A DNA stretch of 64,000 nucleotides from a virus. Positions 51,147 to 63,065 of this stretch are shown piece by piece. The number at the start of each line of letters is the position of its first letter. The stretch's first letter is position 1. Under the pieces are notes generated by a model. It did not search any database. It had not been told where the DNA came from and saw nothing but the letters and a program-made list of their open reading frames with translations. A program made the translations under genes and the position numbers. The stretch spans positions 1-64,000 of the IMG/VR virus record IMGVR_UViG_3300019886_000067. One strand, given 5' to 3'.

Positions 51147-51455
51147 ATGAAGCTAAGGCAGACCCAAACTGAAATGCTTGAGGACGCGGATAAGGCGATT
51201 GAGAACGCTCGCGCTGTGCGTGAGTTTCACGCCAAGCGCAACAAGCGCGGGAGCCGGCAGCGCGAGACCGATATCAGGCTGGCGCTAGAGCGCCTTAGAG
51301 ACGCCATGAAGCCGATTCGGCGCGCGATAGCTAAATTCCCCTACGATCCTACTGGATTGGACGCAGAGAGCCTTAAAACCGCCTCTCAGGACATCCAAAA
51401 GGAGCGCCGCAAGCTCTGGAAGATGAAGGCCACAAAAAGGAAGAGGAAAAATTGA
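51147..51455 (+). CDS. Basic helical protein, 102 aa
   Basis: ATG at 51147 lies 6 nt after the -10 box TACGCT, so translation is probably leaderless; an in-frame start 18 bp upstream is less likely. Charged helices with many Arg/Lys (RSRRNKRGSRQ-like segments) and a KRKRKN end. Function unknown. Overlaps the next gene by TTGA. Confidence 0.6.
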   Translation: MKLRQTQTEMLEDADKAIENARAVREFHAKRNKRGSRQRETDIRLALERLRDAMKPIRRAIAKFPYDPTGLDAESLKTASQDIQKERRKLWKMKATKRKRKN

Positions 51456-52108
51456 CTCAGGAAATAGCAAACGGCTGCCAAGTCCACAAGAACCTAGACG
51501 GTGGCGTGACAATTGTCCAAAGAGACAACGGCACCATACACCTCAGCCGCAAAGAGCTTGTTGAGTTTGTGATCTTTGCCTCAAACCATATAAGGCATAC
51601 GAGAGCCGAACACTCTCAGTCAGTCCTTTTGATGGGAGGCCCGTATCACGGCGAATGGAGAGAGATTCCAGCGGCCGTACAGATTCTTACGTTCCCGCAG
51701 CTAGACAAGCCGTGTTATGTGGCTGATCTTGGAGTAACCCCAGGGACGATGGACTACACCAACCACGTCTATTCGAAAGCCAATGACATTGCCATCGGCG
51801 GGATTAGGTTTCCGTTCGAGATTTTCGAGCATTCGTCGTTGCGCGAGGCCAACATCGCTAGGGCTGCTCGTCTACTTGAGGAAGAGTTGAATGTTAACGG
51901 TACTCGGCAGACGATCACCAAACAGGACTTGGATTTTCGTAGGCAAGATATGGCTAAGGTCCAAGTTGAGGTAGAGGAGGCTAACCGCAAACGAAATTGC
52001 GCGGTCAATCAGCTAACTCAGTCCGAAAAGCGCTGCAAACAGACATACGAAGATGGATTGCGTTTGACTGCCAAGCGTCGCGCTCTTCAGTTCCATCACG
52101 GCGTTTAA
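51452..52108 (+). CDS. Hypothetical protein, 218 aa
   Basis: TTG start in TTGA. Mixed N-terminal domain (about 1-130, with SVLLMGGPYHGEW near 60) and a helical coiled-coil C-terminus (VEVEEANRKRNCAVNQLTQ). Function unknown. A strong terminator follows. Confidence 0.6.
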   Translation: MTQEIANGCQVHKNLDGGVTIVQRDNGTIHLSRKELVEFVIFASNHIRHTRAEHSQSVLLMGGPYHGEWREIPAAVQILTFPQLDKPCYVADLGVTPGTMDYTNHVYSKANDIAIGGIRFPFEIFEHSSLREANIARAARLLEEELNVNGTRQTITKQDLDFRRQDMAKVQVEVEEANRKRNCAVNQLTQSEKRCKQTYEDGLRLTAKRRALQFHHGV

Positions 52109-52113
52109 CGCGG

Positions 52114-52141
52114 AAAGGCCCGCTGATATCAGCGGGCCTTT
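52114..52141. terminator. Perfect palindromic bidirectional terminator
   Basis: A fully palindromic 28-bp sequence (AAAGGCCCGCTGAT then its complement) with A and T tracts at the ends. It stops the plus-strand operon and, in the other direction, the first tRNA array. Confidence 0.85.
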
Positions 52142-52163
52142 CAAGCGGGGTGATTCCTACAAG

Positions 52164-52240
52164 TACGGCGAACGAGAATCGAACTCGCATTATCCACGCT
52201 GAGAACGTGGGGTCCTAGTCCTAGTTAGACGACCGCCGCG
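52164..52240 (-). tRNA. tRNA-Glu (CUC)
   Basis: Anticodon loop TTCTCAG gives CTC, reading GAG. T-arm GCGAG-TTCGATT-CTCGT, acceptor closed with one or two G-U pairs. No encoded CCA. Last gene of array 1 in transcription order. Confidence 0.85.
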
Positions 52241-52242
52241 TA

Positions 52243-52314
52243 TAGCAGACCGAGGATTCGCGCCTCGCTCCCAGGCTTATGAGGCCCGGATGGTCACTAG
52301 ACCACCTGTCTGCA
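52243..52314 (-). tRNA. tRNA-Met (CAU), initiator-like
   Basis: Anticodon loop CTCATAA. The acceptor stem has six pairs and a mismatch at position 1-72, the hallmark of bacterial initiators. The anticodon stem is GC-rich (CGGGC/GCCTG) and the T-loop is CGCGAAT instead of TTCGAAT. Likely an initiator-type tRNA, but elongator Met or Ile2 are possible. Confidence 0.7.
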
Positions 52315-52315
52315 A

Positions 52316-52387
52316 AGTCCCTGTCGGGATTCGAACCCGAACCATTCGCTTAGGAGGCAAACGCGCTATCCATTACGCCACAAGGAC
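52316..52387 (-). tRNA. tRNA-Arg (CCU)
   Basis: Loop CTCCTAA gives CCT, reading AGG. T-arm TCGGG-TTCGAAT-CCCGA, full acceptor stem, no CCA. Confidence 0.9.
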
Positions 52388-52390
52388 ATA

Positions 52391-52459
52391 TCTCCCTACT
52401 GAGAATCGAACTCAGCCTAACAGATTAGAAGTCCGCCGTCCCGATCCACGGGCAAGGAG
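52391..52459 (-). tRNA. tRNA-Arg (UCU)
   Basis: Loop CTTCTAA gives TCT, reading AGA. The D-loop is very short (about 5 nt), total about 69 nt. T-arm regular, no CCA. Confidence 0.8.
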
Positions 52460-52463
52460 TAAG

Positions 52464-52532
52464 TCCCAAGAGCAGGATTCGAACCTGCACCGCGCGGCTT
52501 ATGAGTCCGCCGTGTCACCTAGACATCCTGGG
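52464..52532 (-). tRNA. tRNA-Met (CAU), second copy
   Basis: Loop CTCATAA, full acceptor including a C1-G72 pair, so probably the elongator. It could be tRNA-Ile2 if the C is converted to lysidine. A/G mismatch at 31-39. Confidence 0.75.
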
Positions 52533-52537
52533 TAGAG

Positions 52538-52606
52538 CGGGGAAGCAACGAATCGAACGCTGGCCTGCGGGTTTGGAATCCGCTTGGTCTCCATGACCTC
52601 TTCCCC
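52538..52606 (-). tRNA. tRNA-Trp (CCA)
   Basis: Loop TTCCAAA gives CCA, reading UGG; discriminator G as usual for Trp. Acceptor GGGGAAG/CTTCCCC, no encoded 3' CCA. Confidence 0.85.
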
Positions 52607-52609
52607 TGG

Positions 52610-52653
52610 TTTCGTGTGCCCACCCACTATCGGGGGTAACACGACACACGAAA
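52610..52653 (-). ncRNA. Structured spacer in tRNA array 1
   Basis: TTTCGTGTG pairs with CACACGAAA (9 bp) with an inner CCC/GGG stem. It lies between tRNA-His and tRNA-Trp and is not part of either. It could guide processing of the array transcript. Confidence 0.45.
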
Positions 52654-52654
52654 G

Positions 52655-52729
52655 GGTGTCTGACGGGATTCGAACCCGCATCGAACCGGATCACAACCGG
52701 CGGACTTAACCACTTAGACCACAGACACC
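52655..52729 (-). tRNA. tRNA-His (GUG)
   Basis: Loop TTGTGAT gives GTG. The extra G at position -1 opposite discriminator C, required for His, is present. Confidence 0.9.
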
Positions 52730-52734
52730 GTGTA

Positions 52735-52803
52735 TCCCCTTACTGAGAGTCGAACTCAGCACTCAGGCTTCGGAGGCCCGAGACACGATCCGCGTGTAAG
52801 GAG
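52735..52803 (-). tRNA. tRNA-Arg (CCG)
   Basis: Loop CTCCGAA gives CCG, reading CGG. Similar in sequence to tRNA-Arg (UCU), with the same short D-arm. T-arm CTGAG-TTCGACT-CTCAG. No CCA. Confidence 0.85.
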
Positions 52804-52807
52804 TTGT

Positions 52808-52861
52808 CACTAGTGGGCTCGCGGGAAGCCCTTTATGAGGGACCTATCTCCCTCGCTAGTG
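52808..52861 (-). ncRNA. Three-way-junction RNA element in tRNA array 1
   Basis: CACTAG (52808) pairs with CTAGTG (52861) around two hairpins, GGGCT/AGCCC and GAGGGA/TCCCTC. This makes a compact three-way junction between tRNA-Asp and tRNA-Arg (CCG). No known family recognised. Confidence 0.55.
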
Positions 52862-52864
52862 TAG

Positions 52865-52939
52865 CGCTGATGATGGGACTCGAACCCACGACATTCCGCT
52901 CGACAGGCGGACGCTCTGACCAAACTGAGCTACATCAGC
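52865..52939 (-). tRNA. tRNA-Asp (GUC)
   Basis: Loop CTGTCGA, stem TCCGC/GCGGA, acceptor GCTGATG/CATCAGC, discriminator G. Regular cloverleaf. Confidence 0.92.
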
Positions 52940-52945
52940 GTAAAG

Positions 52946-53019
52946 CCTCCCCGACAGGATTCGAACCTGTAACCTCTGGTTTCGTAGACCAGCGCGCTAT
53001 CCAATTACGCTACGGAGAG
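52946..53019 (-). tRNA. tRNA-Arg (ACG)
   Basis: Loop CTACGAA, stem CTGGT/ACCAG. Reads CGU (and CGC, CGA if A34 becomes inosine, which needs the host deaminase). Discriminator G. Confidence 0.9.
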
Positions 53020-53022
53020 TTA

Positions 53023-53106
53023 TGCGAGTGGTGGGAGTCGAACCCACATGGCCCTTCGGCCGGCGCGGTTTGAACGCACTGCGTATCCCAATTCCACCAC
53101 ACTCGC
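53023..53106 (-). tRNA. tRNA-Leu (CAA)
   Basis: Class II tRNA with a long variable arm (GCCGGCCGAAGGGCC-type). Loop TTCAAAC gives CAA, reading UUG; discriminator A as usual for Leu. Confidence 0.88.
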
Positions 53107-53109
53107 GTA

Positions 53110-53192
53110 TACGTTCGGAGGGAGTCGAACCCTCAATCCCGATGGGCACTGGCTTCTAAGACCAGCGTGTATACCAATTCCACCACGAACGC
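53110..53192 (-). tRNA. tRNA-Leu (UAG)
   Basis: Long variable arm, loop CTTAGAA gives TAG. Acceptor GCGTTCG/CGAACGT, discriminator A. Confidence 0.9.
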
Positions 53193-53195
53193 TCA

Positions 53196-53278
53196 TGCGA
53201 TTGACAAGAGTCGAACTTGCACATTCCGAAGAACACTGCCTCCTCAAGGCAGGGCGTCTACCATTCCGCCACAATCGC
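53196..53278 (-). tRNA. tRNA-Leu (GAG)
   Basis: Long variable arm, loop TTGAGGA, stem CTGCC/GGCAG, acceptor GCGATTG/CAATCGC. Discriminator A. Confidence 0.9.
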
Positions 53279-53284
53279 TTAAAG

Positions 53285-53358
53285 TCAGGATGGCTGGATT
53301 TGAACCAGCGGCTTCCTCCGTCCGAGGGAGGCACGCTACCAGGCTGCGTCACATCCTG
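53285..53358 (-). tRNA. tRNA-Pro (CGG)
   Basis: Loop CTCGGAC, stem CCTCC/GGAGG, acceptor CAGGATG/CATCCTG, T-loop TTCAAAT. Discriminator A. Confidence 0.9.
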
Positions 53359-53363
53359 TTGAG

Positions 53364-53438
53364 TCGGGATAGAAGGATTTGAACCTTCGGCTTCACCGCC
53401 CCAAACGGCGCGCTCTGACCAGACTGAGCTATATCCCG
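53364..53438 (-). tRNA. tRNA-Pro (UGG)
   Basis: Loop TTTGGGG gives TGG. Acceptor CGGGATA/TATCCCG, T-arm GAAGG-TTCAAAT-CCTTC. Confidence 0.9.
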
Positions 53439-53444
53439 AAAAAG

Positions 53445-53517
53445 CTCTTGCGCTAGGATTCGAACCTAGACCTAACGGGTTAACAGCCCGTCGTGCTGCC
53501 GTTGACACCACGCAAGA
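53445..53517 (-). tRNA. tRNA-Asn (GUU)
   Basis: Loop CTGTTAA, stem ACGGG/CCCGT, acceptor TCTTGCG/CGCAAGA, discriminator G. Regular. Confidence 0.92.
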
Positions 53518-53523
53518 TCGAAG

Positions 53524-53595
53524 CTGGGGAGGTAGGATTCGAACCTACATCGGGCCGGGTCAGAGCCGTCCATCTTGCCATTAGACCACTCCCCA
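53524..53595 (-). tRNA. tRNA-Gln (CUG)
   Basis: Loop CTCTGAC gives CTG. Acceptor TGGGGAG/CTCCCCA with U1-A72 and discriminator G, both typical of Gln. Confidence 0.9.
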
Positions 53596-53600
53596 GGGTA

Positions 53601-53672
53601 ATGCGGAGGCTGGATTCGAACCAGCATCGAATGGGTTCAAGGCCCACCATCATGCCGTTAGACCACTCCGCA
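53601..53672 (-). tRNA. tRNA-Gln (UUG) with C33
   Basis: Stem GTGGG/CCCAT encloses CCTTGAA, anticodon TTG. Position 33, almost always U, is C here. U1-A72 matches the other tRNA-Gln. First gene of array 1 after the promoter at 53684. Confidence 0.8.
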
Positions 53673-53683
53673 GCAGAAAGAAC

Positions 53684-53689
53684 AACATA
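53684..53689 (-). promoter_or_regulatory. Promoter of tRNA array 1
   Basis: AGATGTGCTATGTT on the minus strand gives an extended -10 (TGC TATGTT) 12 nt before the first tRNA. The block AGATGTGCTA recurs at array 3 (60476) and TGCTA at array 2. Confidence 0.6.
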
Positions 53690-53712
53690 GCACATCTTCG
53701 TGCCAAAGGTCG

Positions 53713-53750
53713 GGTCGTCCGGTCCCAATTCGGGATGGAACCGGACGACC
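53713..53750. repeat. Long hairpin upstream of array 1
   Basis: GGTCGTCCGGT pairs with ACCGGACGACC across 16 nt. It lies in the 232-bp gap between array 1 and the CCA-adding enzyme gene, on the upstream side of the array promoter. A second, weaker GTGCG/CGCAC structure spans 53760-53798. Apart from promoters no gene is seen in this gap. Confidence 0.6.
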
Positions 53751-53869
53751 GTCGCAAGAGTGCGCTCTCTGGGCTAGCTCTCCAACCCTACGCGCACCAG
53801 GAACGCAACTAATGGGCTGTACGTGCTCTAGGCGTCTCTGCCGAAGACTGTAGCAGATTCTTTGCGGTG

Positions 53870-53898
53870 TTGCACGTCAAGCGAATCTGTGGTACGGT
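53870..53898 (+). promoter_or_regulatory. Leaderless promoter of the CCA-adding enzyme gene
   Basis: TTGCAC (53870-53875), 17-bp spacer ending TGTGG, TACGGT (53893-53898), then 6 nt to the ATG at 53905. No ribosome site, so translation is likely leaderless. Confidence 0.65.
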
Positions 53899-53904
53899 TC
53901 CCCC

Positions 53905-55347
53905 ATGAAGACAACTCCCGATCAGTTCATGGCGAGCCTTGGCTTGCCAGAGGTATATCGCGTTGGAGGTTCAGTCCGAGACGAAGTTCTCGGCCGGCGC
54001 TCCAAAGACTCCGACTATATGGTTCGGGGCTCCACGCTTAATGAGATTAGGTCGGCTGTCGGGCGCGCGGGTGCTAAGCCGAGCAAGCTCAAGCTACGCA
54101 CAGGTGTTGAGGTAGGTGTACGGGCCGCAGTCAAGGGGCTCGGCTTGCTTGAGATTGTTCTGCCGCGCACAGAGCGCTCAACTGGACCCGGCCGGCACGA
54201 TTTCGAGATTCATTGTTCGCCTGATATCCGACTTGAGGAAGATGCTCTTCGTCGTGACTTCAAAATGAATGCGATCTACCTCAACATCGCTTCTCAGCAC
54301 TATGTTGATCCGCTTGGTGGGCTTGATGATATAAAACGTAAACTCATCAACACCACACATGCTGATTCCTTCAAGGAAGACCCGCTTCGCACGCTTCGAG
54401 CGCTGCGTTTCTGTTCTACGTTGCCAGGATTTTGTCTGTCAGGAACTACACACAACCAAATGTGCGACCATGCGCCGGCCGTAACTGGTCTGACGACGAA
54501 AGGTGTCTCTGCTACCGCATTTGATGAGCTTTGCAAGCTGCTCATGGGCAGTCGGCCAAGCTTGGCGCTGGAATTGATGGCCGAAACAGGCGTTATGGCG
54601 GTTTTCCTGCCTGAGCTTGTGCCAATGCTTGACTTCGAGCAGCGTTCGCGCTACCACGAGAAGACAACAAGCAAGCACACGTTCGATGCTGTGCAGGCGG
54701 CGGCTAATATGCACCAACACGCGCCGCTTCGCGTACGTTTGGCACTACTTTTCCACGATTCCGGCAAGCCTTTGATGGCTTGGACAGGCGAGGACGGCCT
54801 TCAGCATTACTACGCGCTTGATCCAAAGCGAGCAGTAGAGCTAAATGCACCAATCGCCGCACTTGAATCACACGAGGCATGGGGCGTCAAGCAAGCGCAC
54901 GCTGCTCTAACGCGCCTTGGCGCTCCAAAGAAGCTACGCCAAGACGTTGAAACACTGATTGCGCGCCATATGTTGCCGCTGCATGAGAACTTTAGGCCGA
55001 TCAAGGTACGCAAGTTGCGTGCAGAGCTTGGCGACGAGCTTTTGCGTGACCTAATCACGCATCGGCTGGCTGATGTGCTCGGCAAGGGCGGTGACACAAC
55101 GGCCGCTGTAGAAGTTCTGACGTGGATTGCCAACGAGCAAGACAGGGCCATCGCCGGCCATGTGCCGCTAAGTCCGAAGGAACTTGATATAAGTGGCCGT
55201 GAACTTGTTGCGCTAGGTTTGAACGGCCGCGAAATCGGACGCGTGCAGAAGCAGCTACTACACGAGGTACTTGCTCAGCCTAAGCTCAACACAAACGAGT
55301 GGCTTGTCAATCGAGCCAAGGTCATACGCCACAAGGATATGAAATGA
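53905..55347 (+). CDS. cca: CCA-adding tRNA nucleotidyltransferase
   Basis: 480 aa. The nucleotidyltransferase head starts with YRVGGSVRDEVLGRRSKDSDY (G-G/S and DxD motifs, residues 18-38). EDALRRDFKMNAIYLN (about 111) and KEDPLRTLRALRF (about 154) are the conserved neck motifs. An HD domain (LLFHDSGKPL, about 282) follows, then a helical tail. It adds CCA to tRNA 3' ends and can repair them. This matters here because the phage tRNA genes do not encode CCA. Leaderless start; overlaps the next gene by ATGA. Confidence 0.9.
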   Translation: MKTTPDQFMASLGLPEVYRVGGSVRDEVLGRRSKDSDYMVRGSTLNEIRSAVGRAGAKPSKLKLRTGVEVGVRAAVKGLGLLEIVLPRTERSTGPGRHDFEIHCSPDIRLEEDALRRDFKMNAIYLNIASQHYVDPLGGLDDIKRKLINTTHADSFKEDPLRTLRALRFCSTLPGFCLSGTTHNQMCDHAPAVTGLTTKGVSATAFDELCKLLMGSRPSLALELMAETGVMAVFLPELVPMLDFEQRSRYHEKTTSKHTFDAVQAAANMHQHAPLRVRLALLFHDSGKPLMAWTGEDGLQHYYALDPKRAVELNAPIAALESHEAWGVKQAHAALTRLGAPKKLRQDVETLIARHMLPLHENFRPIKVRKLRAELGDELLRDLITHRLADVLGKGGDTTAAVEVLTWIANEQDRAIAGHVPLSPKELDISGRELVALGLNGREIGRVQKQLLHEVLAQPKLNTNEWLVNRAKVIRHKDMK

Positions 55348-55547
55348 GCGCTCCGATTTATCCTCCGTGGACGAAGAAGTACAAGCTAAGCTACCTTGGC
55401 TTCAATAACTACGAGGTAATAGAGGAGTCATCAAAAGACATACTCGCGGTCGGTCCTTTGGAGTATGGCGAGGCACAAGACATTGCTGATCGCGCCAATT
55501 CCGAACTCACAGCCGAACGTGTCAAGAACAGAAACAAGGCCAAATGA
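55344..55547 (+). CDS. Hypothetical protein, 67 aa
   Basis: ATG in ATGA with the CCA enzyme stop. Begins MSAPIYPPWTKKYKLSYLGF; beta then helix, with a Lys-rich end. Co-transcribed with cca. No family recognised. Confidence 0.55.
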   Translation: MSAPIYPPWTKKYKLSYLGFNNYEVIEESSKDILAVGPLEYGEAQDIADRANSELTAERVKNRNKAK

Positions 55548-55723
55548 TAAATCTGGCCTTTGTCTGCGCCGGCCTGCTGGGTGTTTTGATGTTCATGTGT
55601 CTCGCGCACGAACGCGAGCTTGAGCGTGAAGAGTGCCCACATCTTAATTGCCGCGAATTTGGAAGCTCCTACAATATCACTATCTGTTTTTGCCCAGATT
55701 GCGGAAAGGTAGACCTACTATGA
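55544..55723 (+). CDS. Small membrane-anchored zinc-ribbon protein, 59 aa
   Basis: ATG in ATGA. A hydrophobic N-terminus (LAFVCAGLLGVLMFMCLA) is followed by CPHLNC and CFCPDC, a likely zinc ribbon on the cytoplasmic or outer face. The stop overlaps the next ATG. Function unknown. Confidence 0.55.
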   Translation: MINLAFVCAGLLGVLMFMCLAHERELEREECPHLNCREFGSSYNITICFCPDCGKVDLL

Positions 55724-56163
55724 TCCTGCGTAACCAAGCCATATGTACGCTGTGTGGCGACCACATCAAGTCGATACACAAACATGATTTCAAATCTTGT
55801 TTATGTGGAGCGCTATCAGTTGACGGCGGCACTGAGTATCTGCGCCGGCTCGGCAACCCAGGAGAGTACAGAGACACGTCTATTTGTATTCCCGAGCAGC
55901 TTCCGATCAAGGAGGCCGCAAAGTATCTCGGCGTCGTAGTGGCGCTGGGAGATACGGCCGTTGCAGGAACTTCGTGGCTAGAAGGCCAGTTGATAGGTCA
56001 GTTCAAGACTAAGCCTTGGTTCAAGCCGCCGAAGGACAAACGACAACTACTCAAGTGGTGTCGGAAGCTCGTGGAATGGGAGTTGGTTGATGAGCTTACG
56101 ACTAAGGGCGACGCTCAGTGCTATTGGAAATCCAAAGTCGAGCTAGCTACTTGGACTGATTAA
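55720..56163 (+). CDS. DUF7695-like protein with zinc-binding N-terminus, 147 aa
   Basis: ATG in ATGA. The opening ICTLCGDHIKSIHKHDFKSC followed by CG and SVDGG matches a small phage domain annotated DUF7695, with Cys/His pairs fit for zinc. The C-terminal half is helical, with many Trp and Lys. Family function unknown. Confidence 0.6.
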   Translation: MILRNQAICTLCGDHIKSIHKHDFKSCLCGALSVDGGTEYLRRLGNPGEYRDTSICIPEQLPIKEAAKYLGVVVALGDTAVAGTSWLEGQLIGQFKTKPWFKPPKDKRQLLKWCRKLVEWELVDELTTKGDAQCYWKSKVELATWTD

Positions 56164-56165
56164 TT

Positions 56166-56230
56166 ATGCACGATCACGCAGATTAGATGATGTTCTCTTC
56201 GCCTAGAAGTAAATCTGCGTGATCGTGCAT
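56166..56230. terminator. 19-bp inverted repeat between convergent genes
   Basis: ATGCACGATCACGCAGATT and its exact complement enclose a 27-nt loop. It sits between the convergent genes at 55720 (plus) and 56236 (minus). No U tract. Likely a barrier to convergent transcription or an RNase processing hairpin. Confidence 0.7.
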
Positions 56231-56556: not shown

Positions 56557-56610
56557 TGGTACAGTGCATCCTTCCCGTGGTTTTGTAGTAGGAGAAGGAT
56601 ACCATTAGAG

Positions 56611-56696
56611 CGGAAGGAGTGGGACTCGAACCCACACGCCGGCTCACGCCGACCTCAGCACTTTCCAGGCGCAGTACCGCTCCTTTGGGTCCTTCC
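56611..56696 (-). tRNA. tRNA-Ser (GGA) with reduced D-arm
   Basis: Loop CTGGAAA gives GGA. Long variable arm (GGTCGGC-GTGA-GCCGGC), acceptor GGAAGGA/TCCTTCC, discriminator G. The D-arm is shortened and pairs poorly; it may not form. Confidence 0.75.
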
Positions 56697-56704: not shown

Positions 56705-56775
56705 AGAGCACGGTTGGATTCGAACCAACGTGAGACGGGTTGCAACCGCCGGCTTCGCCCCTCAGCCACGCACTC
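56705..56775 (-). tRNA. tRNA-Cys (GCA)
   Basis: Loop TTGCAAC gives GCA. Discriminator U, needed for Cys. T-arm GTTGG-TTCGAAT-CCAAC. Confidence 0.88.
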
Positions 56776-56792
56776 ATAAGCGGGATGCACTT

Positions 56793-56843
56793 TGGCGCGC
56801 TCCCGAGTGCGCCTCGCTCTAGACGGCCGCAACCGACGAGCGA
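56793..56843 (-). ncRNA. Structured spacer in tRNA array 2
   Basis: GGCGCGCTC with GAGTGCGCC (one mismatch) and TCGCTC with GAGCGA form two hairpins between tRNA-Ser (GCU) and tRNA-Cys. Not part of either tRNA. Confidence 0.45.
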
Positions 56844-56850
56844 TACTAAG

Positions 56851-56939
56851 CGGTAGGTCAGGGATTCGAACCCTGGGAACACCATTAGATGTTCGCTGGT
56901 TTAGCAAACCAGTCCATTCGGCCGCTCTGGCAACCTACC
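56851..56939 (-). tRNA. tRNA-Ser (GCU)
   Basis: Long variable arm, loop TTGCTAA, stem CTGGT/ACCAG, acceptor GGTAGGT/ACCTACC, discriminator G. Confidence 0.92.
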
Positions 56940-56945
56940 GGAAAG

Positions 56946-57028
56946 CGGAGGGTAAGCGAATCGAACACTCACGCGGTTAGTCGTGCCCTGGGTTTCGAAT
57001 CCAGTTTGCCGCCTTGGCGGTACCCTCC
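56946..57028 (-). tRNA. tRNA-Ser (CGA)
   Basis: Loop TTCGAAA gives CGA, reading UCG. Long variable arm. Acceptor GGAGGGT/ACCCTCC, discriminator G. Confidence 0.88.
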
Positions 57029-57032
57029 GAAA

Positions 57033-57112
57033 TGGAAACGTGAGGAATCGAACCTCATAGTACGAGACAGCGGGGTTACAGCCCACTTGGCGGTCCCAGC
57101 GCCAACGTTTCC
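57033..57112 (-). tRNA. tRNA-Tyr (GUA)
   Basis: Loop CTGTAAC gives GTA. Medium-long variable arm as in bacterial tRNA-Tyr, acceptor GGAAACG/CGTTTCC, discriminator A. First gene of array 2. Confidence 0.9.
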
Positions 57113-57174: not shown

Positions 57175-57384
57175 ATGAGCAACGTACAGGCCCTAGTAGG
57201 CAAGCCACTCACATTCTACGCCCGAGGCAAGAAGCGCAACATAGGCACGATCACGGATGTATCTGTCGTAGACAACGGCGTCCGATTCGCCGCAACCGTG
57301 ACTGACAGCGAGGTAGCCAAGCTTCTAGGCGTTGATCCTCCTGTTGAGATAAGCGGTGGTGCTGGCGATGTCTCAAGCACCTAA
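57175..57384 (+). CDS. Small beta-rich protein, 69 aa
   Basis: Leaderless ATG at 57175. Strand-rich protein with KPLTFYARGKKRNIGTITDV; size and pattern resemble small barrel folds. Function unknown. First gene of the operon that contains the phosphoesterase and GGQ genes; overlaps the next. Confidence 0.55.
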   Translation: MSNVQALVGKPLTFYARGKKRNIGTITDVSVVDNGVRFAATVTDSEVAKLLGVDPPVEISGGAGDVSST

Positions 57385-57979
57385 ACTTGATCCTGCAAGT
57401 ACGTGGCTTGTATCTGACACGCACTTTGGGCACGAAAACATCGTCGGCTTCGCCCGCCGCCCGCACGACCATGAGCAAGTCATTATGGAGGAATGGGCAC
57501 AAACTGTTCCCGACGACGGAACGGTACTGCATCTAGGCGACTTGTCTTATAGAAATAACTCGTTCTTCAAGAACATGATCGCCAAGCACTTGACTGGCGC
57601 TCAGAAGCTCTTGATCCAAGGCAACCATGATCGTCAGCGGCCGAACTTCTATCGTGATAGCGGCTTCAAGATCGTTAAGCCTTTTGAGATTCGCTATGTC
57701 ACGCCGAAGGCTGGTGTCTGGACAGTCTCGTTCTCTCACTATCCCCTAAAGAAGTCAGCACATCCGCTTGCATCAGCAGGCGGCCTAAGACGCGTTCATA
57801 TACACGGCCACATTCACAATAACGGGTATGGCGGCAAGAATTCTCCGTTTGTTCCGTTCAGCGCAGGGCAAATCAACATCAGCGTTGAGCAGATGCACTA
57901 TCGCCCCTGCAAACTAGACGACCTTCTCAACGGCTACATAGAAGGTTGCTACGAGCCTCCGAAGGTCGAGGACAAGTGA
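57368..57979 (+). CDS. Calcineurin-like metallophosphoesterase
   Basis: 203 aa; ATG at 57368 is chosen over a GTG four codons earlier. All metal-binding motifs are present in order: SDTHFGH (about residue 16), LGDLSY (about 52), GNHDRQ (about 77), FSHYP (about 118) and HGHIHN (about 141). The enzyme should hydrolyse a phosphodiester or phosphomonoester. In this operon, with an ART-like and a GGQ gene, an RNA end-repair or nucleotide-removal role is possible but unproven. Confidence 0.85.
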   Translation: MSQAPKLDPASTWLVSDTHFGHENIVGFARRPHDHEQVIMEEWAQTVPDDGTVLHLGDLSYRNNSFFKNMIAKHLTGAQKLLIQGNHDRQRPNFYRDSGFKIVKPFEIRYVTPKAGVWTVSFSHYPLKKSAHPLASAGGLRRVHIHGHIHNNGYGGKNSPFVPFSAGQINISVEQMHYRPCKLDDLLNGYIEGCYEPPKVEDK

Positions 57980-58326: not shown

Positions 58327-58404
58327 AATGGACAGAATACTTGCGTTTGCGCTACCTTTTTGCCCATACTGCAACTACATCCCGAGCTTCAAGTAACCGC
58401 TGCT

Positions 58405-58734
58405 ATGCCCCGCGAAAAAGTTCTGACTGTTCGTATTTCTGATTGTGAGATTCAGACGTTCAAAGCCACCGGCAAAGGTGGGCAGAACCGAGACAAACGC
58501 GATACGGCCGTTCGTATAATCCACCATCAGTCCGGGGCGCGTGGTGAATCACGTGAAGAGCGTGACCAGCTTTCCAACAAGCGCAAAGCCTTTGTCCGCA
58601 TGGCGAACTCAAAGGCATTCAAGGACTGGCTTACAAGAGAGCATAGCCGTCGTATAGCCGACGTAGATGCCTGGCTTGATGAGCAGATGAAGCCAGAGAA
58701 CCTTGATGTTGAGTATGGCTCGGATACCAACTAG
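58405..58734 (+). CDS. GGQ peptide-release-factor-like protein (RF-1 domain)
   Basis: 109 aa; ATG at 58405. FKATGKGGQNRDKRDTAVRI (about residue 19-38) holds the universal GGQ motif and the following RF-1 pattern; the C-terminus is a basic helix. It lacks the codon-reading domains of RF1/RF2, so it resembles ArfB/ICT1-type proteins that release peptides from stalled ribosomes. It is one of four phage-encoded translation functions here. A 22-codon ORF with a CPYC motif (58328-58396) lies just upstream and may be a leader peptide. Confidence 0.82.
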   Translation: MPREKVLTVRISDCEIQTFKATGKGGQNRDKRDTAVRIIHHQSGARGESREERDQLSNKRKAFVRMANSKAFKDWLTREHSRRIADVDAWLDEQMKPENLDVEYGSDTN

Positions 58735-58744
58735 CTCAAACAAC

Positions 58745-58900
58745 ATGCGTGTGTTTAGCGAAGCGCACAAACACAATAACCACTGGCTAGTTGAAGCTGA
58801 ATGGCACGGCAAAATGCGGATTGTCCACAGTGGCCTTGACATCTACGCTGTACTTCGCTGGGCGACCCAGCATGGCTACCACGAGAAAAGCCCTGCCTAA
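58745..58900 (+). CDS. Hypothetical protein, 51 aa
   Basis: ATG at 58745 lies 10 nt after the GGQ gene stop; in-frame starts further upstream overlap that gene. Alpha/beta with WLVEAEWHGKMRIV. No family recognised. A GCAAC/GTTGC hairpin follows at 58912-58924. Confidence 0.45.
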   Translation: MRVFSEAHKHNNHWLVEAEWHGKMRIVHSGLDIYAVLRWATQHGYHEKSPA

Positions 58901-58975
58901 AAGAGCAATTCTGCAACATAGTTGCAACAAAGCTAAATTAGACAGGACCGCAATGGACACCCGTCTTTCCAACGA

Positions 58976-59048
58976 TGCAACCTGTAGGAATCGAACCTAC
59001 GACGCCCGGCTTTTCAGGCCGGCGCTCTACCGTCTGAGCTAAGGTTGC
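58976..59048 (-). tRNA. tRNA-Phe (GAA)
   Basis: Loop CTGAAAA, stem CCGGC/GCCGG, acceptor GCAACCT/AGGTTGC, discriminator A. Confidence 0.92.
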
Positions 59049-59053
59049 TTGTA

Positions 59054-59125
59054 AGCGCGTGACGAGATTCGAACTCGTTCTTCTTGGTTGGAAGCCAAGT
59101 GTGCCGCCATGAACACTTCACACGC
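59054..59125 (-). tRNA. tRNA-Gly (UCC)
   Basis: Loop CTTCCAA, stem CTTGG/CCAAG, acceptor GCGTGTG/CACGCGC, discriminator U. Confidence 0.9.
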
Positions 59126-59128
59126 GAA

Positions 59129-59200
59129 AGGCCGGGCTCTCACCGGACTACAAGCGACCACGCTTGCCTTATGGGTCGGTACTTCCCGACAGTAACTTAA
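59129..59200 (-). ncRNA. Tandem hairpins in tRNA array 3
   Basis: Three hairpins in 70 nt: CCGG/CCGG, CAAGCG/CGCTTG and GTCGG/CCGAC, between tRNA-Thr (CGU) and tRNA-Gly. Not a tRNA. Possibly a processed small RNA or a spacer. Confidence 0.45.
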
Positions 59201-59272
59201 AGCTCTCACCGAGAATCGAACTCGATACTGACGATTACGAAACGTCCGTGTCACCAACAACACCTTGAGAGC
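59201..59272 (-). tRNA. tRNA-Thr (CGU)
   Basis: Loop TTCGTAA gives CGT. Acceptor GCTCTCA/TGAGAGC, T-arm TCGAG-TTCGATT-CTCGG, discriminator U. One mismatch at the top of the anticodon stem. Confidence 0.82.
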
Positions 59273-59275
59273 ACA

Positions 59276-59342
59276 AGCCCCATATCGGAATCGAACCGAT
59301 TCTAGCTGATTACAAAACAGCCGCCAGACCATCAGATAGGGC
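59276..59342 (-). tRNA. tRNA-Thr (UGU)
   Basis: Loop TTTGTAA gives TGT. About 67 nt, with a reduced D-arm. Acceptor GCCCTAT/ATGGGGC, discriminator U as in the other Thr tRNAs. Confidence 0.82.
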
Positions 59343-59431
59343 GTATCCACAGGCTGCCTACTTCTCCTGCTAAGAGGGTCGGCATTTAAAAGGATGTCCA
59401 AAGCAATAAGGACAAGCATTCACCTGTTAGA
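59343..59431 (-). ncRNA. Structured spacer in tRNA array 3
   Basis: CAGG (59350) and CCTG (59423) enclose GCC/GGC and TGTCC/GGACA hairpins, suggesting another multi-branched element between two Thr tRNAs. No T-arm, so not a tRNA. Low confidence in the exact fold. Confidence 0.35.
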
Positions 59432-59503
59432 AGCTGATGACGAGAGTCGAACTCGTAACCCCTCCCATACCAAGGGAGTGCTATACCGTTAAGCCACACC
59501 AGC
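59432..59503 (-). tRNA. tRNA-Thr (GGU)
   Basis: Loop TTGGTAT, stem CTCCC/GGGAG, acceptor GCTGGTG/CATCAGC, discriminator U. Confidence 0.9.
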
Positions 59504-59539
59504 GGGCGTGGCGCTCTAACCAGATTTGAGCTACACCCG
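59504..59539 (-). pseudogene. tRNA relic: acceptor stem plus D-arm
   Basis: On the minus strand GGGTGTAGCTCA begins a tRNA with a regular D-arm (TCTGGTTAGAGC), and ACGCCC follows at once and pairs with GGGTGT. Anticodon and T arms are gone. It looks like an internal deletion that kept the acceptor stem. Confidence 0.6.
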
Positions 59540-59580
59540 AGCAAAGCTCGCGCGGTGGGCTTCGATCCCACAACCTCCAC
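59540..59580 (-). pseudogene. tRNA relic: T-arm fragment
   Basis: GTGGG-ATCGAAG-CCCAC is a T-arm-like hairpin (loop close to TTCGAAT) with no matching anticodon arm. Probably the remains of a lost tRNA gene. Confidence 0.45.
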
Positions 59581-59584
59581 TAAG

Positions 59585-59657
59585 TACCCCCGCAAGGAAT
59601 CGAACCTTGTTCGCTGGCTTAAGAGGCCAGTGCTCATCCTGTTAAAGCTTCGGAGGC
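59585..59657 (-). tRNA. tRNA-Lys (CUU)
   Basis: Loop CTCTTAA, stem CTGGC/GCCAG, acceptor with two G-U pairs, discriminator A. Confidence 0.9.
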
Positions 59658-59663
59658 TTGTAG

Positions 59664-59755
59664 TGCGCCTGATGGGACTCGAACCCACATCCGTTGGTGT
59701 GAAAAACCAATGCTGGGGACAACTCAGTTGCCTCTACCATTTCAGCTACAGACGC
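59664..59755 (-). tRNA. tRNA-Glu (UUC) with insertion near the D-arm
   Basis: Stem TTGGT/ACCAA with loop TTTTCAC, the usual Glu loop, gives TTC. Acceptor GCGTCTG/CAGGCGC and T-arm GTGGG-TTCGAGT-CCCAT are regular. Total is about 92 nt: about 17-19 nt extra lies between the D-loop and the anticodon stem and can form a GGCAAC/GTTGTC hairpin. Confidence 0.75.
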
Positions 59756-59761
59756 TTAAAG

Positions 59762-59835
59762 TGCCCCCTCTGGGATTCGAACCCAGTTCTCACCGCTTAA
59801 AAGGCGGGGTTCTAACACACATGAACTAAGGAGGC
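59762..59835 (-). tRNA. tRNA-Lys (UUU)
   Basis: Loop CTTTTAA gives TTT. Acceptor GCCTCCT/AGGGGGC, T-arm CTGGG-TTCGAAT-CCCAG, discriminator A. Confidence 0.9.
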
Positions 59836-59840
59836 GTGCA

Positions 59841-59913
59841 AGCAACAGACGGGATTCGAACCCGCAACCTTCGACATGGCAAGCCGACGCACTACCGAAC
59901 GTGCTCCTGTTGC
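59841..59913 (-). tRNA. tRNA-Gly (GCC)
   Basis: Loop TTGCCAT gives GCC. Acceptor GCAACAG/CTGTTGC, discriminator U. Confidence 0.9.
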
Positions 59914-59918
59914 GTAAG

Positions 59919-59992
59919 TACGCCCCCAAGGATTTGAACCTTGAACCAACACCTTATAAGGATGCTGCTCTAACCAATTGAGCTAGAGGCGC
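59919..59992 (-). tRNA. tRNA-Ile (UAU)
   Basis: Loop CTTATAA gives TAT, reading AUA directly. This anticodon is rare in bacteria, where AUA is normally read by lysidine-modified CAU. Acceptor and T-arm regular, discriminator A. Confidence 0.85.
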
Positions 59993-59997
59993 GAGAG

Positions 59998-60072
59998 TGG
60001 ATCGAGAAGGATTTGAACCTTCGACAGTTCGCGTATCAGACGAATGCTCTAACCTGACTGAGCTACCGATCC
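59998..60072 (-). tRNA. tRNA-Ile (GAU)
   Basis: Loop CTGATAC, stem TTCGT/GCGAA, acceptor GGATCGG/TCGATCC, discriminator A. Confidence 0.9.
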
Positions 60073-60077
60073 ATGAG

Positions 60078-60151
60078 TGGACAATCTCGGACTCGAACCG
60101 AGGACTTCCGCCTTGTAAAAGCGGCGCTCTAACCAACTGAGCTAATCGTCC
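60078..60151 (-). tRNA. tRNA-Val (UAC)
   Basis: Loop TTTACAA gives TAC. T-arm CTCGG-TTCGAGT-CCGAG, discriminator A. Confidence 0.9.
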
Positions 60152-60155
60152 ATAA

Positions 60156-60224
60156 ACGGGAAGGCTGGACTCGGACCAGCATCTACCGGCCCCACGCCGG
60201 CCGCTCTAATTGAGCTACCTCCCT
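60156..60224 (-). tRNA. tRNA-Pro-like, anticodon uncertain (UGG or GGG)
   Basis: GCCGG/CCGGT encloses CGTGGGG. With a standard 7-nt loop the anticodon would be TGG and position 33 a G; by similarity to the Pro loop NTGGGGN it would be GGG. The D-loop is very short and the 1-72 pair is A-G. T-loop TCCGAGT. May be degenerate. Confidence 0.55.
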
Positions 60225-60226
60225 AG

Positions 60227-60299
60227 TGGTCAATGCTGGACTCGAACCAGCGACTTCGGCGATGTCACCGCCGCGCTCTCCCAACTGAGCTAATCGACC
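60227..60299 (-). tRNA. tRNA-Val (GAC)
   Basis: Loop GTGACAT, stem CGGCG/CGCCG, acceptor GGTCGAT/ATTGACC, discriminator A. Confidence 0.9.
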
Positions 60300-60305
60300 A
60301 AGAAG

Positions 60306-60378
60306 TGGAGAAGATGGGATTCGAACCCACGACATCCTGCTTGCAAAACAGGCGCTCTACCAACTGAGCTACATCCCC
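60306..60378 (-). tRNA. tRNA-Ala (UGC)
   Basis: Loop TTTGCAA gives TGC; T-arm GTGGG-TTCGAAT-CCCAT; discriminator A. The Ala identity pair G3-U70 is present (GGG.../...UCC). First gene of array 3. Confidence 0.9.
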
Positions 60379-60383
60379 TTGGA

Positions 60384-60481
60384 GCGCCAGGCATTACCCG
60401 TGGCGCGTGGTACGGTCAGAGTAGAGGCTGGGACTGGACCGATAGGGCCAGGAGCGTTCTCAAACCGTGAGTAGAACTCTA
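60384..60481 (-). promoter_or_regulatory. Promoter and structured leader of tRNA array 3
   Basis: The extended -10 AGATGTGCTAGAGT has its TAGAGT at 60476-60481. About 95 nt of leader follow before tRNA-Ala, with hairpins CTGG/CCAG and GCGCCA/TGGCGC (60384-60407). A plus-strand TGGTACGGT at 60408-60416 could be an antisense promoter. Confidence 0.5.
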
Positions 60482-60505
60482 GCACATCTACGCGACACAT
60501 GCTGA

Positions 60506-60721
60506 CTAGCGCACGCGAGTGATCCTGTTCTTGAATGGTTCGTATGAATTGAGTATCTTGGACTCTTCAGGATCGGATGTTTCGTAGGCATGGCCGGGGC
60601 TCATTTTAGCCGCCATGACTTTGCCGTTTGGCTCTGCGGCCATCAACAGCGTTTCGCCGCCGGCCAACGGCAGATAGGCCGGCGGTTCATGTTTGAGGTT
60701 GGCGAACAACAGCGCTAGCAT
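60506..60721 (-). CDS. Hypothetical protein, 71 aa
   Basis: The ATG overlaps the stop of the virion-type gene upstream. A short hydrophobic start then a polar domain; KILNSYEPFKNRITRV at the end. The segment TLLMAAEPNGKVMAA suggests a virion-related beta fold. It is similar in tone to the ends of the two genes upstream. Function unknown. Confidence 0.5.
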   Translation of the reverse strand: MLALLFANLKHEPPAYLPLAGGETLLMAAEPNGKVMAAKMSPGHAYETSDPEESKILNSYEPFKNRITRVR

Positions 60722-61581
60722 TAGTCGCCTAGTCTAATGGCCTGCAAGCTAAAGAACGCCTGTGCTCCCGCTCCGTTGACGTATTCTACGCGAACCCAGC
60801 GGGTACTTGGGCGATGAATTATCTCGCCGTAGAATTCACATCCAGTAGCTTTCGCAAGTTCGACTGTCTTTACCTTCTTGAAGGTTATGTTGTCACGGCT
60901 GACTTCTAGAAAGATAGTTCCGATAACATCGGCTGTTGCGCTGACACGGAACTCGTATTGCCCGAGGCTTCCGTTTGAGAAGCCCGTCGCTGTGGCAGTT
61001 GTGGTCAAATCAATAGAGGCTGACTGAACTTTGGCGGCAGAGCCGAGTGTAGTAGAGGAAAGATCGGTCCACTGACCCGGAGCAAATGTGCCACCGACGA
61101 TAGTTCCAGAAGCAGCGAACACCACTCCGACAACTGTCTCATAATTGGACGCACCCTGCGCCACCGATACTTCTACTGTGCCAGATGTGTAAGCCGTGCA
61201 GTGAACGCGAATGTGCGTGGAACCTGCCGGAATCGCTGCCTCCCATGCCACAGTGCTGTTCGTGGCTGCGGAAAGCGGAGTCGTGGTCGGAGAACCAGAA
61301 GCTACGTTAGCGCCTTGAAATCCCATCCATGTTGTGCCGCCGTCATGGCTTGCTTCGCAAATAGCCGTAACACCAGCGTATACACCTTTGAAGTAGAAGA
61401 CACACATAGTTTGTCCTGCTTCTACAGGCGCTATGACTTCTGCGCCGGCACCTGCTGTGCCGGTCAGCGTGCCGTTTACTACGCTATCAGCCTGCTTAGA
61501 TGTCTGCTGTATAAGCTGATTCGAGGCGTTTTCGTTGAAGAGAACGAGTTGCCCCGAGGGCAGTAGGACTGTTGCAGACAT
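60721..61581 (-). CDS. Virion-type beta-sandwich protein, 286 aa
   Basis: Beta-rich, with two repeats of the discoidin/fibronectin-like kind: EASHDGGTTWMGFQG (about residue 80) and LEVSRDNITFKKVKTV (about 225). Such proteins form tail fibres, head decorations or adhesion domains. Not next to the main structural operon, so perhaps an accessory surface protein. Confidence 0.6.
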   Translation of the reverse strand: MSATVLLPSGQLVLFNENASNQLIQQTSKQADSVVNGTLTGTAGAGAEVIAPVEAGQTMCVFYFKGVYAGVTAICEASHDGGTTWMGFQGANVASGSPTTTPLSAATNSTVAWEAAIPAGSTHIRVHCTAYTSGTVEVSVAQGASNYETVVGVVFAASGTIVGGTFAPGQWTDLSSTTLGSAAKVQSASIDLTTTATATGFSNGSLGQYEFRVSATADVIGTIFLEVSRDNITFKKVKTVELAKATGCEFYGEIIHRPSTRWVRVEYVNGAGAQAFFSLQAIRLGD

Positions 61582-61600
61582 TGTAACCTACTATACCTGG

Positions 61601-62617
61601 CTATTCGACTTTCACAACAACCCCAGGAAAGTCGTTTTCCAGTACCTTGATTGTCTGTGGGTCTTCCGTTTCATACGGGGTTCCAGAGTTTAGAACTGCT
61701 GTCACTAGTTGACCGTTTGCAGCCTTGACTTTCTCAATCGTCAGTTTCGTGCCGCTTTTGGTCGGTTCAAACAGCGCTGCGGCTACGGTGTAGGAGAATG
61801 TAGCCGTTGTGGTGCCGCCAGAGTTGTTTTCGGCCGTGACTTTGATGCTGTAGCTTCCAGTCGTTGTAAGCGAGCCCGTGATAAGGCCAGTAATGTTGTT
61901 GATGGTGAGACCAGGAGGCAAGCCACTCGCGCTGTAAAATACAGCGCGAGTGGCAATAATCTGGATTGAAACTTTGCTCCCGGTGGCTTTTTTCTGCGTC
62001 CCTGGGTTCGTAACTTCTGGTGCAGCTTCTTCAGCTTGTTCAGCGGCCATGAAGTTCGTAAATAGCGGGTAGGAGCCTTGGCCGTCAGAGCCAACGAATC
62101 CGGCAGTGAATGGCGTGTTCGGGTCTTTCGCGTTCAAAACGAGAACCCACGAGCCGGAACCTTCAGGCCGGCGGTAAGCTTCTAGTTTGTTGCCCTGCTT
62201 CCAAAGTGCGAATTCATCACCAGCGGCCGGACTTATAGAGCCAGAAAGGCCAATGCTTGATTCAACGCCGCTTTCAACACGGAATATACCAATTAGGAGA
62301 GTAGATGACGTGTTGTGGTAAAACTGGACTCGATAGCCTGAGTGCGTCGTGTTGTTGTAGCAAAGCCACAAGCATCCGAATCGTTCGGCAATATCCGAGC
62401 CGAGTGACCGCTTGATCGTCACAGCATGGTTGTTTTTGAATTCTTTAGCGTTCCAGTAAGACCCAGAAGACAACCCAAAACCCGAGTATGACATTCCGCC
62501 GGCCGCACTTTTCAGAGCACCCGTAGCCCATGTCATCTTACTCCAATTTGCTTTTTCATACCAAGTAGTTTCGGCATGTTGAAGGTTGTCTTGGAGCGTA
62601 AGTTCTTCTAGGAACAC
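61601..62617 (-). CDS. Lectin-like surface protein with putative-Ig domain, 338 aa
   Basis: Residues 1-190 read as a concanavalin/LamG-like jelly roll (LGSDIAERFGCLWLCY, GYRVQFYHN, then DEFALWKQGNKLEAYRR). Residues 195-290 match a bacterial Ig domain of the He_PIG type (SASGLPPGLTINNITGLITG). The last 45 residues (GTPYETEDPQTIKVLE) resemble the 71-aa gene at 60506. Likely a sugar-binding virion protein. Confidence 0.65.
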   Translation of the reverse strand: MFLEELTLQDNLQHAETTWYEKANWSKMTWATGALKSAAGGMSYSGFGLSSGSYWNAKEFKNNHAVTIKRSLGSDIAERFGCLWLCYNNTTHSGYRVQFYHNTSSTLLIGIFRVESGVESSIGLSGSISPAAGDEFALWKQGNKLEAYRRPEGSGSWVLVLNAKDPNTPFTAGFVGSDGQGSYPLFTNFMAAEQAEEAAPEVTNPGTQKKATGSKVSIQIIATRAVFYSASGLPPGLTINNITGLITGSLTTTGSYSIKVTAENNSGGTTTATFSYTVAAALFEPTKSGTKLTIEKVKAANGQLVTAVLNSGTPYETEDPQTIKVLENDFPGVVVKVE

Positions 62618-62655
62618 TCACCAATTCTGCCACAGCAACCGGCTTTCAGCCGTGC

Positions 62656-62704
62656 GACAATATCGTCACATACGCCCGATTCGAACGAATGTGACGATAT
62701 TGTC
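62656..62704 (-). terminator. Inverted repeat directly 3' of the RNase P RNA
   Basis: GACAATATCGTCACAT and its exact complement (16 bp) enclose a 17-nt loop. On the minus strand it starts 6 nt after the RNase P RNA end. It may terminate or define the 3' end of that RNA. No strong U tract. Confidence 0.6.
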
Positions 62705-62710
62705 ACAAAT

Positions 62711-63065
62711 GGGGTCCAGCCTGTAGCCGGGGTTCTGTTCCCAGGACGACAAACCCCTGGGCGACCACGATCTTTCTTACCGGGCTGACTAATTCCCGGC
62801 AGCCGTCCTATGACGTGCCGCTCCAAACCTTGATCGCCCCCGCTATGCTTCGGGCGTCTGTTCTTGGATCGCACCCAGCCTTGGCAACTCGCGCGTGCGC
62901 GCGTCTCGCGGTTCAAGCGTCCCGTGCTACTGTCCGCATCGCTCTCGCAACTTGGCCCCAACAAGGACTCCCGCCGGCCGGTGACGACGAGGTTAGCCCT
63001 CGTCGGGGTGCCCCGAACTTCCTCTCGCGTCCTTCAACCGCGAGCCGCAGTCCGGCTGGCCCACT
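62711..63065 (-). ncRNA. rnpB: RNase P RNA (bacterial type A-like)
   Basis: On the minus strand all landmarks of RNase P RNA appear in order. P1: GGGCCAGCC at the 5' end pairs with GGCTGGACCC at the 3' end. P3: hairpin CTCGCG/CGCGAG. CR-I GAGGAAGTTCGGGG (63011-63024), CR-II ACAGTAGCA (62925-62933), CR-IV AGAAAGATCGTGG, and CR-V ACAGAACCCCGGCT (62725-62738). CR-I CGGGG pairs with CR-V CCCCG to form P4, the catalytic helix. Length about 355 nt is normal. It would remove 5' leaders from pre-tRNAs, including those of the phage arrays. No rnpA gene was seen. Confidence 0.85.

Follow-up and report, generated by a model that had tools for sequence, protein, structure and literature searches.

A diverged RNase P RNA of tRNA-rich phages, with a probable role in processing their own tRNA arrays

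RNase P RNA and tRNA genes in the window

The DNA analysed here, referred to as the window, is a stretch of 64,000 nucleotides (nt) that forms part (positions 1 to 64,000) of the 80,397-base IMG/VR phage record IMGVR_UViG_3300019886_000067; its genes include those for portal, capsid, head-tail, tail, terminase and DNA polymerase proteins. Close to one end of the window lies a sequence resembling rnpB, the gene for the RNA component of bacterial RNase P, and clusters of tRNA genes and a gene for a CCA-adding enzyme (cca) are found on the same side of it (Table 1). The Rfam model of bacterial class A RNase P RNA, RNaseP_bact_a (RF00010), aligned with the sequence from end to end (model positions 1–367) at 19.1 bits, with E values of 0.013 for a search of 13.5 kb and 9e-4 for a search of 1 kb. 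The Rfam gathering score for this model is 100 bits, and because the window RNA falls so far below it, standard annotation misses the gene. The first-pass annotation had nonetheless placed an RNase P RNA here, and the assignment holds despite the low Rfam score. A sequence profile (nhmmer, used in place of a covariance model) built from four members of the same clade and leaving out the window retrieved the window copy with an E value of 9.8e-23 (best value in shuffled windows, 0.6), and a corresponding profile from 14 members gave 6.9e-9 (4.4 in shuffled windows). The predicted fold of the window RNA was more stable than that of 100/100 shuffled sequences (z −3.0).

Covariation was assessed independently of an alignment, by pairing the 5' and 3' segments of helices P1, P2 and P4 within and across 13 phage RNAs. 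For P1, segments of the same RNA paired with a mean energy of −17.8 kcal/mol as against −7.8 kcal/mol for cross-pairs, and none of 20000 permutations was as good; the corresponding numbers were 2/20000 for P2 and 9/20000 for P4, the latter formed by GGGG/CCCC in most of the RNAs, GCGA/UCGC in Stenotrophomonas phage DLP6, GACG/CGUC in the huge phage LR756511 and a cellular-type pairing in the record that we label G006. The bulged U of P4, the helix formed by CR-I and CR-V, was retained in all 13 RNAs, as were the J18/2 motif AGRNNRAU (AGANNAAU) and the GGU of L15, which was read off the sequences. P1, P2, P3, P4 with its bulged U, P5, P15 with GGU, J18/2, CR-I, CR-V and the end-to-end alignment are all shared with the class A RNA represented by RF00010 and Escherichia coli M1 RNA, and judged from sequence we regard homology of the phage RNA to class A RNase P RNA as near certain.

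The tRNA genes of the window are all on the minus strand. ARAGORN identified 33 confident genes between 52163 and 60378, representing all 20 amino acids, and relaxed settings added about seven weaker or degenerate ones (e.g., 52734–52802, 56610–56696, 56945–57028, 59276–59342 and 60156–60225), which makes the earlier count of 39 tRNAs a fair one if degenerate genes are included. The genes are tightly packed, with a median spacer of 5 nt and spacers of 6 nt or less in 22 of 32 cases.

Immediately downstream of the RNase P RNA, two near-identical 18-nt palindromes (TGTGACRATATYGTCACA), found nowhere else in the window, make up a hairpin. On the 5' side, two tRNA-like elements lie directly upstream on the minus strand (63185–63267 and approximately 63067–63140). 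The first of these scored 44.6 bits to transfer-messenger RNA (tmRNA; cut-off 47) in one Rfam scan and weakly in another, and a comparable short element, with a UUUCGAC loop, precedes rnpB in G006. Phage tmRNA, as in methylophage Melnitz (PMC9004378), is likewise a phage-encoded stable RNA of translation, but it is a different RNA, and what is seen here is a tRNA-like element near rnpB that scores just under the tmRNA cut-off.

Table 1. Positions in the window of the RNase P RNA, its parts and the accompanying features
Feature	Position	Strand	Basis
Phage RNase P RNA (rnpB-like), diverged class A	62708..63063	-	RF00010, nhmmer profile, P1/P2/P4 covariation, fold
P1 5' strand (GGGCCAGCC)	63054..63062	-	Pairs with 62712–62721; own-pair energy better than every cross-pair
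P1 3' strand	62712..62721	-	Pairing with P1 5' strand
CR-I / P4 5' strand GAGGAAGUUCGGGG, bulged U69, U at position 70	63011..63024	-	Motif, pairing
CR-V / P4 3' strand AACAGAACCCCGGCUA	62724..62739	-	Motif, pairing
Specificity (S) domain, reduced or rearranged	62877..63005	-	Length comparison (133 nt)
P5 3' strand and J5/15, G at position of A248	62866..62876	-	Sequence
L15 GGU (contact to tRNA 3' CCA) and P15 3' strand	62822..62831	-	Sequence
J18/2 AGAAAGAU	62768..62777	-	AGRNNRAU motif
Hairpin (two near-identical palindromes) immediately downstream of the RNase P RNA	62653..62707	-	Putative terminator, processing or operator element
tRNA cluster 1 (17 tRNAs)	52163..53672	-	ARAGORN
tRNA cluster 2 (Cys, Ser, Tyr and degenerate ones)	56705..57112	-	ARAGORN, relaxed settings
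tRNA cluster 3 (13 tRNAs and degenerate ones)	58976..60378	-	ARAGORN, relaxed settings
CCA-adding tRNA nucleotidyltransferase, 480 amino acids	53905..55347	+	Pfam, PHROG, NCBIfam
Pth2, archaeal/eukaryotic-type peptidyl-tRNA hydrolase, 144 amino acids	20904..21338	+	Pfam
GGQ-domain-only protein (PHROG 3122), 124 amino acids	58360..58734	+	Pfam, PHROG

Distribution among phages and departures from cellular RNase P RNA

The same type of RNase P RNA is present in about 19 distinct tRNA-rich phage records, gathered through relatives of the capsid protein, three motif scans and a blastn search of one match against GenBank phages. Four relatives with capsid proteins 60–62% identical to that of the window gave end-to-end RF00010 matches of 27–57 bits, and the further carriers are contigs of 18–183 kb, the cultured phage DLP6 and LR756511 (595 kb). 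In DLP6 (KU682439) the RNA (54.7 bits, E 3.4e-14), about 250 nt at 105774–106022, falls in a gap of the annotation, with a tRNA gene 4 nt away. Two copies exceed the gathering score (G051, 191 bits; G056, 169 bits), but most fall below it, among them DLP6 and also G052 (54 bits), G057 (66.7 bits) and G058 (63.5 bits). The Rfam model fails to detect the copies of G053, G054, G055 and LR756511, although motifs and helices are present; that of LR756511 is known from its motifs and P1/P2/P4 pairing alone. Other searches gave less: blastn of the window rnpB against GenBank phages returned tRNA and tmRNA matches only, two other phage rnpB RNAs gave no blastn match, and a search for related loci with the window CCA protein found none, unlike that with the capsid protein.

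Among 85,000 cellular genomes, the phage variant of CR-V was matched 51 times, and CR-I occurred alongside in one case only. We take the other 50 to be chance matches, since no CR-I was found in the stretch examined (as for the pattern matches L126 and L131). The near absence of the CR-I/CR-V pair from cellular genomes argues that the phage RNAs have not been copied recently from known hosts. The single case, L183 (JANWKP010000389.1), is a contig of 12.7 kb that carries a phage-type rnpB and was binned with a Nitrososphaerales archaeon; it is probably a misbinned phage contig. A cellular-type rnpB used as query matched six phage records. The unverified gut 'Bacteriophage sp.' records among these six, as well as MT835993, contain a near-canonical rnpB and are probably contamination. 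Three putative viral IMG/VR contigs of 31–190 kb (L110 in G047, L112 in G041 and L115 in G049) have a canonical actinobacterial-type rnpB (253–280 bits) within arrays of 33–38 tRNAs. L003, L005, L006, L007 and L009 are related contigs in which the 5' part of rnpB is replaced or truncated, with tRNA genes adjoining.

All rnpB carriers tested are rich in tRNAs (10–64 each), and tRNA density around rnpB is 9.3 per 10 kb as compared with 0.8 in 32 control loci. The presence of cca follows how the tRNA 3' ends are encoded. In these counts, which allow for the inclusion of CCA in the gene end by ARAGORN and refer to the tRNAs of the loci examined rather than of whole genomes, CCA is encoded in 0–8% of the tRNA genes where a clear cca gene is present (window 1/33, G006 0/30, G011 2/25, G003 1/27, G013 0/23, G052 0/16, G053 0/9), with the exception of G054, where the proportion is 8/11 despite a clear cca gene. 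Where cca is absent or weak, CCA is encoded in 71–100% (G051 10/10, G055 8/8, G056 5/7, G058 27/29, DLP6 15/15), leaving aside the actinobacterial-type contigs G041, G047 and G049, which have no cca match and mostly do not encode CCA. Because cca is found mostly where the tRNA genes lack CCA, and because all tested rnpB records are tRNA-rich, the tRNA arrays, rnpB and cca appear to be functionally tied. For comparison, T4 tRNA dimers lack CCA, and cleavage by RNase P is better when CCA is present (PMC11143913). Large tRNA arrays together with a tRNA nucleotidyltransferase (PHROG 2244) are also a feature of the phage tRNA clusters surveyed previously (PMC6409571); the difference is that in the present phage rnpB belongs to the set.

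The phage RNAs depart from bacterial class A RNA in several respects besides being virus-encoded and, in the window, scoring far below the Rfam cut-off. U replaces the nucleotide corresponding to E. coli C70 in 12 of 13 phage RNAs, and that base played no part in the selection of many of them (the window, G012, DLP6, LR756511 and those found by CR-V alone). In E. coli RNase P, the C70U substitution leaves substrate binding intact and slows catalysis (PMC11221534). The window RNA combines U70 with G at position 248, in place of C70 and A248, the latter of which is well conserved in bacteria (PMC10465520). The catalytic domain is about constant in size in most of the phage RNAs, and the S domain measures 52–101 nt in seven distinct phage RNAs and 133 nt in the window, compared with 152–173 nt in the cellular-type RNAs compared. 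Minimal RNase P RNAs (archaeal type T and mitochondrial) also keep the catalytic domain and lack the S domain. The phage RNAs resemble these in a retained catalytic domain and a reduced S domain, and differ in having a bacterial class A core, in occurring in phages and in the graded reduction within a single family. In G053, an open reading frame (about 65 codons, start ATGTCGTATAAAACG) extends from the S-domain region of the minus-strand rnpB (L122) into the P5 region.

Residue 248 was placed by hand in J5/15. It is G in the window, G006, G011/G012/G018 and G052, and A in the other phages, and the base preceding the mature tRNA (N−1) differs accordingly: C 58, T 20, A 23 and G 1 in the G248 phages, and T 55, C 20, A 12 and G 1 in the A248 phages (Fisher p 3e-9 for C versus T). 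Relative to positions N−3 to N−6, C is enriched at N−1 in the G248 phages (p 5e-4), and the corresponding enrichment in the A248 phages is of T (p 3e-7).

Function of the phage RNA

We consider it probable (about 0.66), from the sequence comparisons described above, that the phage carries its own working RNase P ribozyme RNA, which is adapted to the phage and processes its own tRNA arrays. The observations behind this reading are the homology, the conserved helices and catalytic motifs, the wide occurrence in tRNA-rich phages, the relation between cca and encoded CCA, and the association of residue 248 with N−1. A bacterial class A RNA would have been the ancestor, followed by long adaptation to phage life. 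An RnpA gene was absent from all 13 phage records searched, and the phages would therefore not encode a full holoenzyme; the RNA would instead bind RnpA of the host and, presumably while infection is under way, cut the 5' ends of tRNAs in tightly packed polycistronic phage transcripts, with the phage CCA enzyme completing those 3' ends that the genes do not encode. In the clade of the window, G248 occurs together with C−1 leaders, and enzyme and substrates therefore appear to have changed together. A bolder proposal, that tailed phages have evolved an RNase P ribozyme family of their own, partly orthogonal to that of the host, in which U70/G248 and the C−1 leaders co-evolved and the specificity domain was shed, we put forward as a tentative possibility without favouring it.

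A number of points weigh against a dedicated, working phage ribozyme. U70 strongly slows the E. coli holoenzyme (from 0.017 to 0.0005 per s in the tabulated values, approximately 250-fold according to the text; PMC11221534), so the phage RNA could be slow as well. By eye, a tRNA-elbow (T-loop) binding module can be made out in the S domains of G051 and G056 but not in most others, and the window rnpB lies 2.3 kb from the nearest confident tRNA gene. Furthermore, rnpB was undetected in 15 other tRNA-rich or cca-bearing phages, for which the host enzyme can thus suffice. As to residue 248, G248 marks a single clade and hence one change, the tRNAs within a phage are not independent, and base composition differs between the G248 and A248 groups, although at an equal 54% GC the window and G052 still differ from DLP6 at N−1. 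A simple pairing between G248 and C−1 is also at odds with E. coli biochemistry, where G248 nevertheless gives the highest rate among the four variants with a minimal C−1 substrate (PMC10465520).

In two alternatives the RNA is genuine but serves another end. According to the first, it would be a spare copy that maintains normal RNase P capacity late in infection or across hosts, with no preference for phage substrates. In its favour, the tRNAs of polycistronic transcripts in E. coli are separated by RNase P (PMC11143913), and other IMG/VR contigs have canonical actinobacterial-type rnpB genes within their tRNA arrays. The phage type, however, is strongly diverged, with a shared change at position 70 and, in one clade, another at 248 that is matched by the composition of the leaders, and we therefore think a spare copy unlikely. 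The second alternative turns on the C70U result: a slowly cleaving RNA that occupies host RnpA and pre-tRNA could act as a decoy, or dominant-negative, that throttles maturation of host tRNAs after infection. The prevalence of U70 would suit such a role, as would the retention of J18/2 while the S domain shrinks. A decoy has no need, however, of a covarying P4 with its bulged U, of the L15 GGU or of a residue 248 tuned to phage leaders, and every carrier has large tRNA arrays of its own that need cleavage; this explanation, too, appears improbable. An origin of the window RNA as an assembly chimera, or as the decaying relic of a host rnpB acquired by chance, which its low Rfam score might suggest, is hardly tenable in view of the covarying helices, the conserved catalytic motifs and the approximately 19 phage records, one of them from a cultured phage.

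Few catalytic RNAs occur throughout cellular life, and RNase P RNA is among them. Our searches, which covered the CC-licensed PMC literature but not most subscription journals and preprints, found no report of an RNase P RNA in a phage; an earlier mention is possible. For DLP6, the published description has 30 tRNAs but does not list an RNase P, and RNase P is absent from the text of the 2019 survey of viral tRNA clusters (PMC6409571). As far as the searchable literature shows, what is new is therefore not RNase P RNA itself but a viral and diverged form tied to phage tRNA arrays, and within the same literature a widespread virus-encoded branch of RNase P would be new as well. The finding alters the view of what phage tRNA arrays need, and the divergence from the Rfam model explains why annotation misses the phage copies. 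The phage RNAs also constitute natural variants at sites that have been mutagenized (70, 248 and the S domain). A 2024 review (PMC11143913) regards it as an open question how multimeric tRNA precursors are bound by bacterial RNase P, and the phages supply matched pairs of enzyme and substrate, that of DLP6 being available in culture.

Accompanying genes

The first-pass annotation grouped the RNase P RNA and the tRNAs with a CCA enzyme, Pth2 and a GGQ release factor into a joint translation kit. The CCA enzyme, Pth2 and the GGQ domain are confirmed by family matches. The CCA enzyme, a class II nucleotidyltransferase with orthologues 50% identical in relatives, has a PolyA_pol head (PF01743, 67 bits; Pfam E 2.2e-18) and an RNA-binding domain (PF12627, 36 bits), both over the cut-off, and matches the PHROG tRNA nucleotidyltransferase family (6.7e-59). 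Pth2 matches PF01981 (PTH2) at 5.8e-22 and 78.5 bits (cut-off 23), its best solved match being archaeal (1rlk). The GGQ protein matches RF-1 in Pfam (6.8e-14) and the RF-1 domain release factor family in PHROG (8.3e-33), but only domain 3 of release factors is aligned, without the codon-reading domains 2 and 4. Its C-terminus, WLDEQMKPENLDVEYGSDTN, is conserved (M-x-PEN-L) and not basic, hence lacking an ArfB-like basic tail, and the NCBIfam ArfB model gave 23 bits (cut-off 100). Because it consists of domain 3 only and has a non-basic C-terminus, the protein is neither RF1/2 nor ArfB as far as the tested features go. A further claim, of an S4-like protein at 18708–18998, found no support, as no match was obtained in Pfam, PHROG or NCBIfam.

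The notion of a kit stands in part. rnpB, cca, the RF-1 domain and Pth2 do co-occur in relatives (G011, G012 and G018, of 103–140 kb, with capsid proteins 60% identical) and also in G052 (90 kb) and LR756511, which was the check proposed with the original claim. A single kit is another matter: Pth2 is present in 5–6 of 15 tRNA-rich or cca-bearing phages in which no rnpB was detected, the GGQ/RF-1 gene is absent from several rnpB phages, and the genes do not form one operon, since the plus strand carries cca, Pth2 and the GGQ gene, whereas the tRNA genes and rnpB lie on the minus strand. Pth2 and the GGQ protein are thus probably looser, separable companions of rnpB, and would probably serve to recycle tRNA from aborted translation. 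The set had also been proposed to replace host functions degraded or blocked in infection, for example by anticodon nucleases; such nucleases are not known to target RNase P, the CCA enzyme or release factors.

Three further genes were noted in passing. A gene for an RtcB-type RNA ligase is located near the tRNA and rnpB region of G051 (L120, 4379–5572). In the window, a metallophosphoesterase gene (57356–57979) lies between tRNA clusters on the opposite strand, and a TOTE-type archaeo-eukaryotic primase domain is encoded at 9390–10337.

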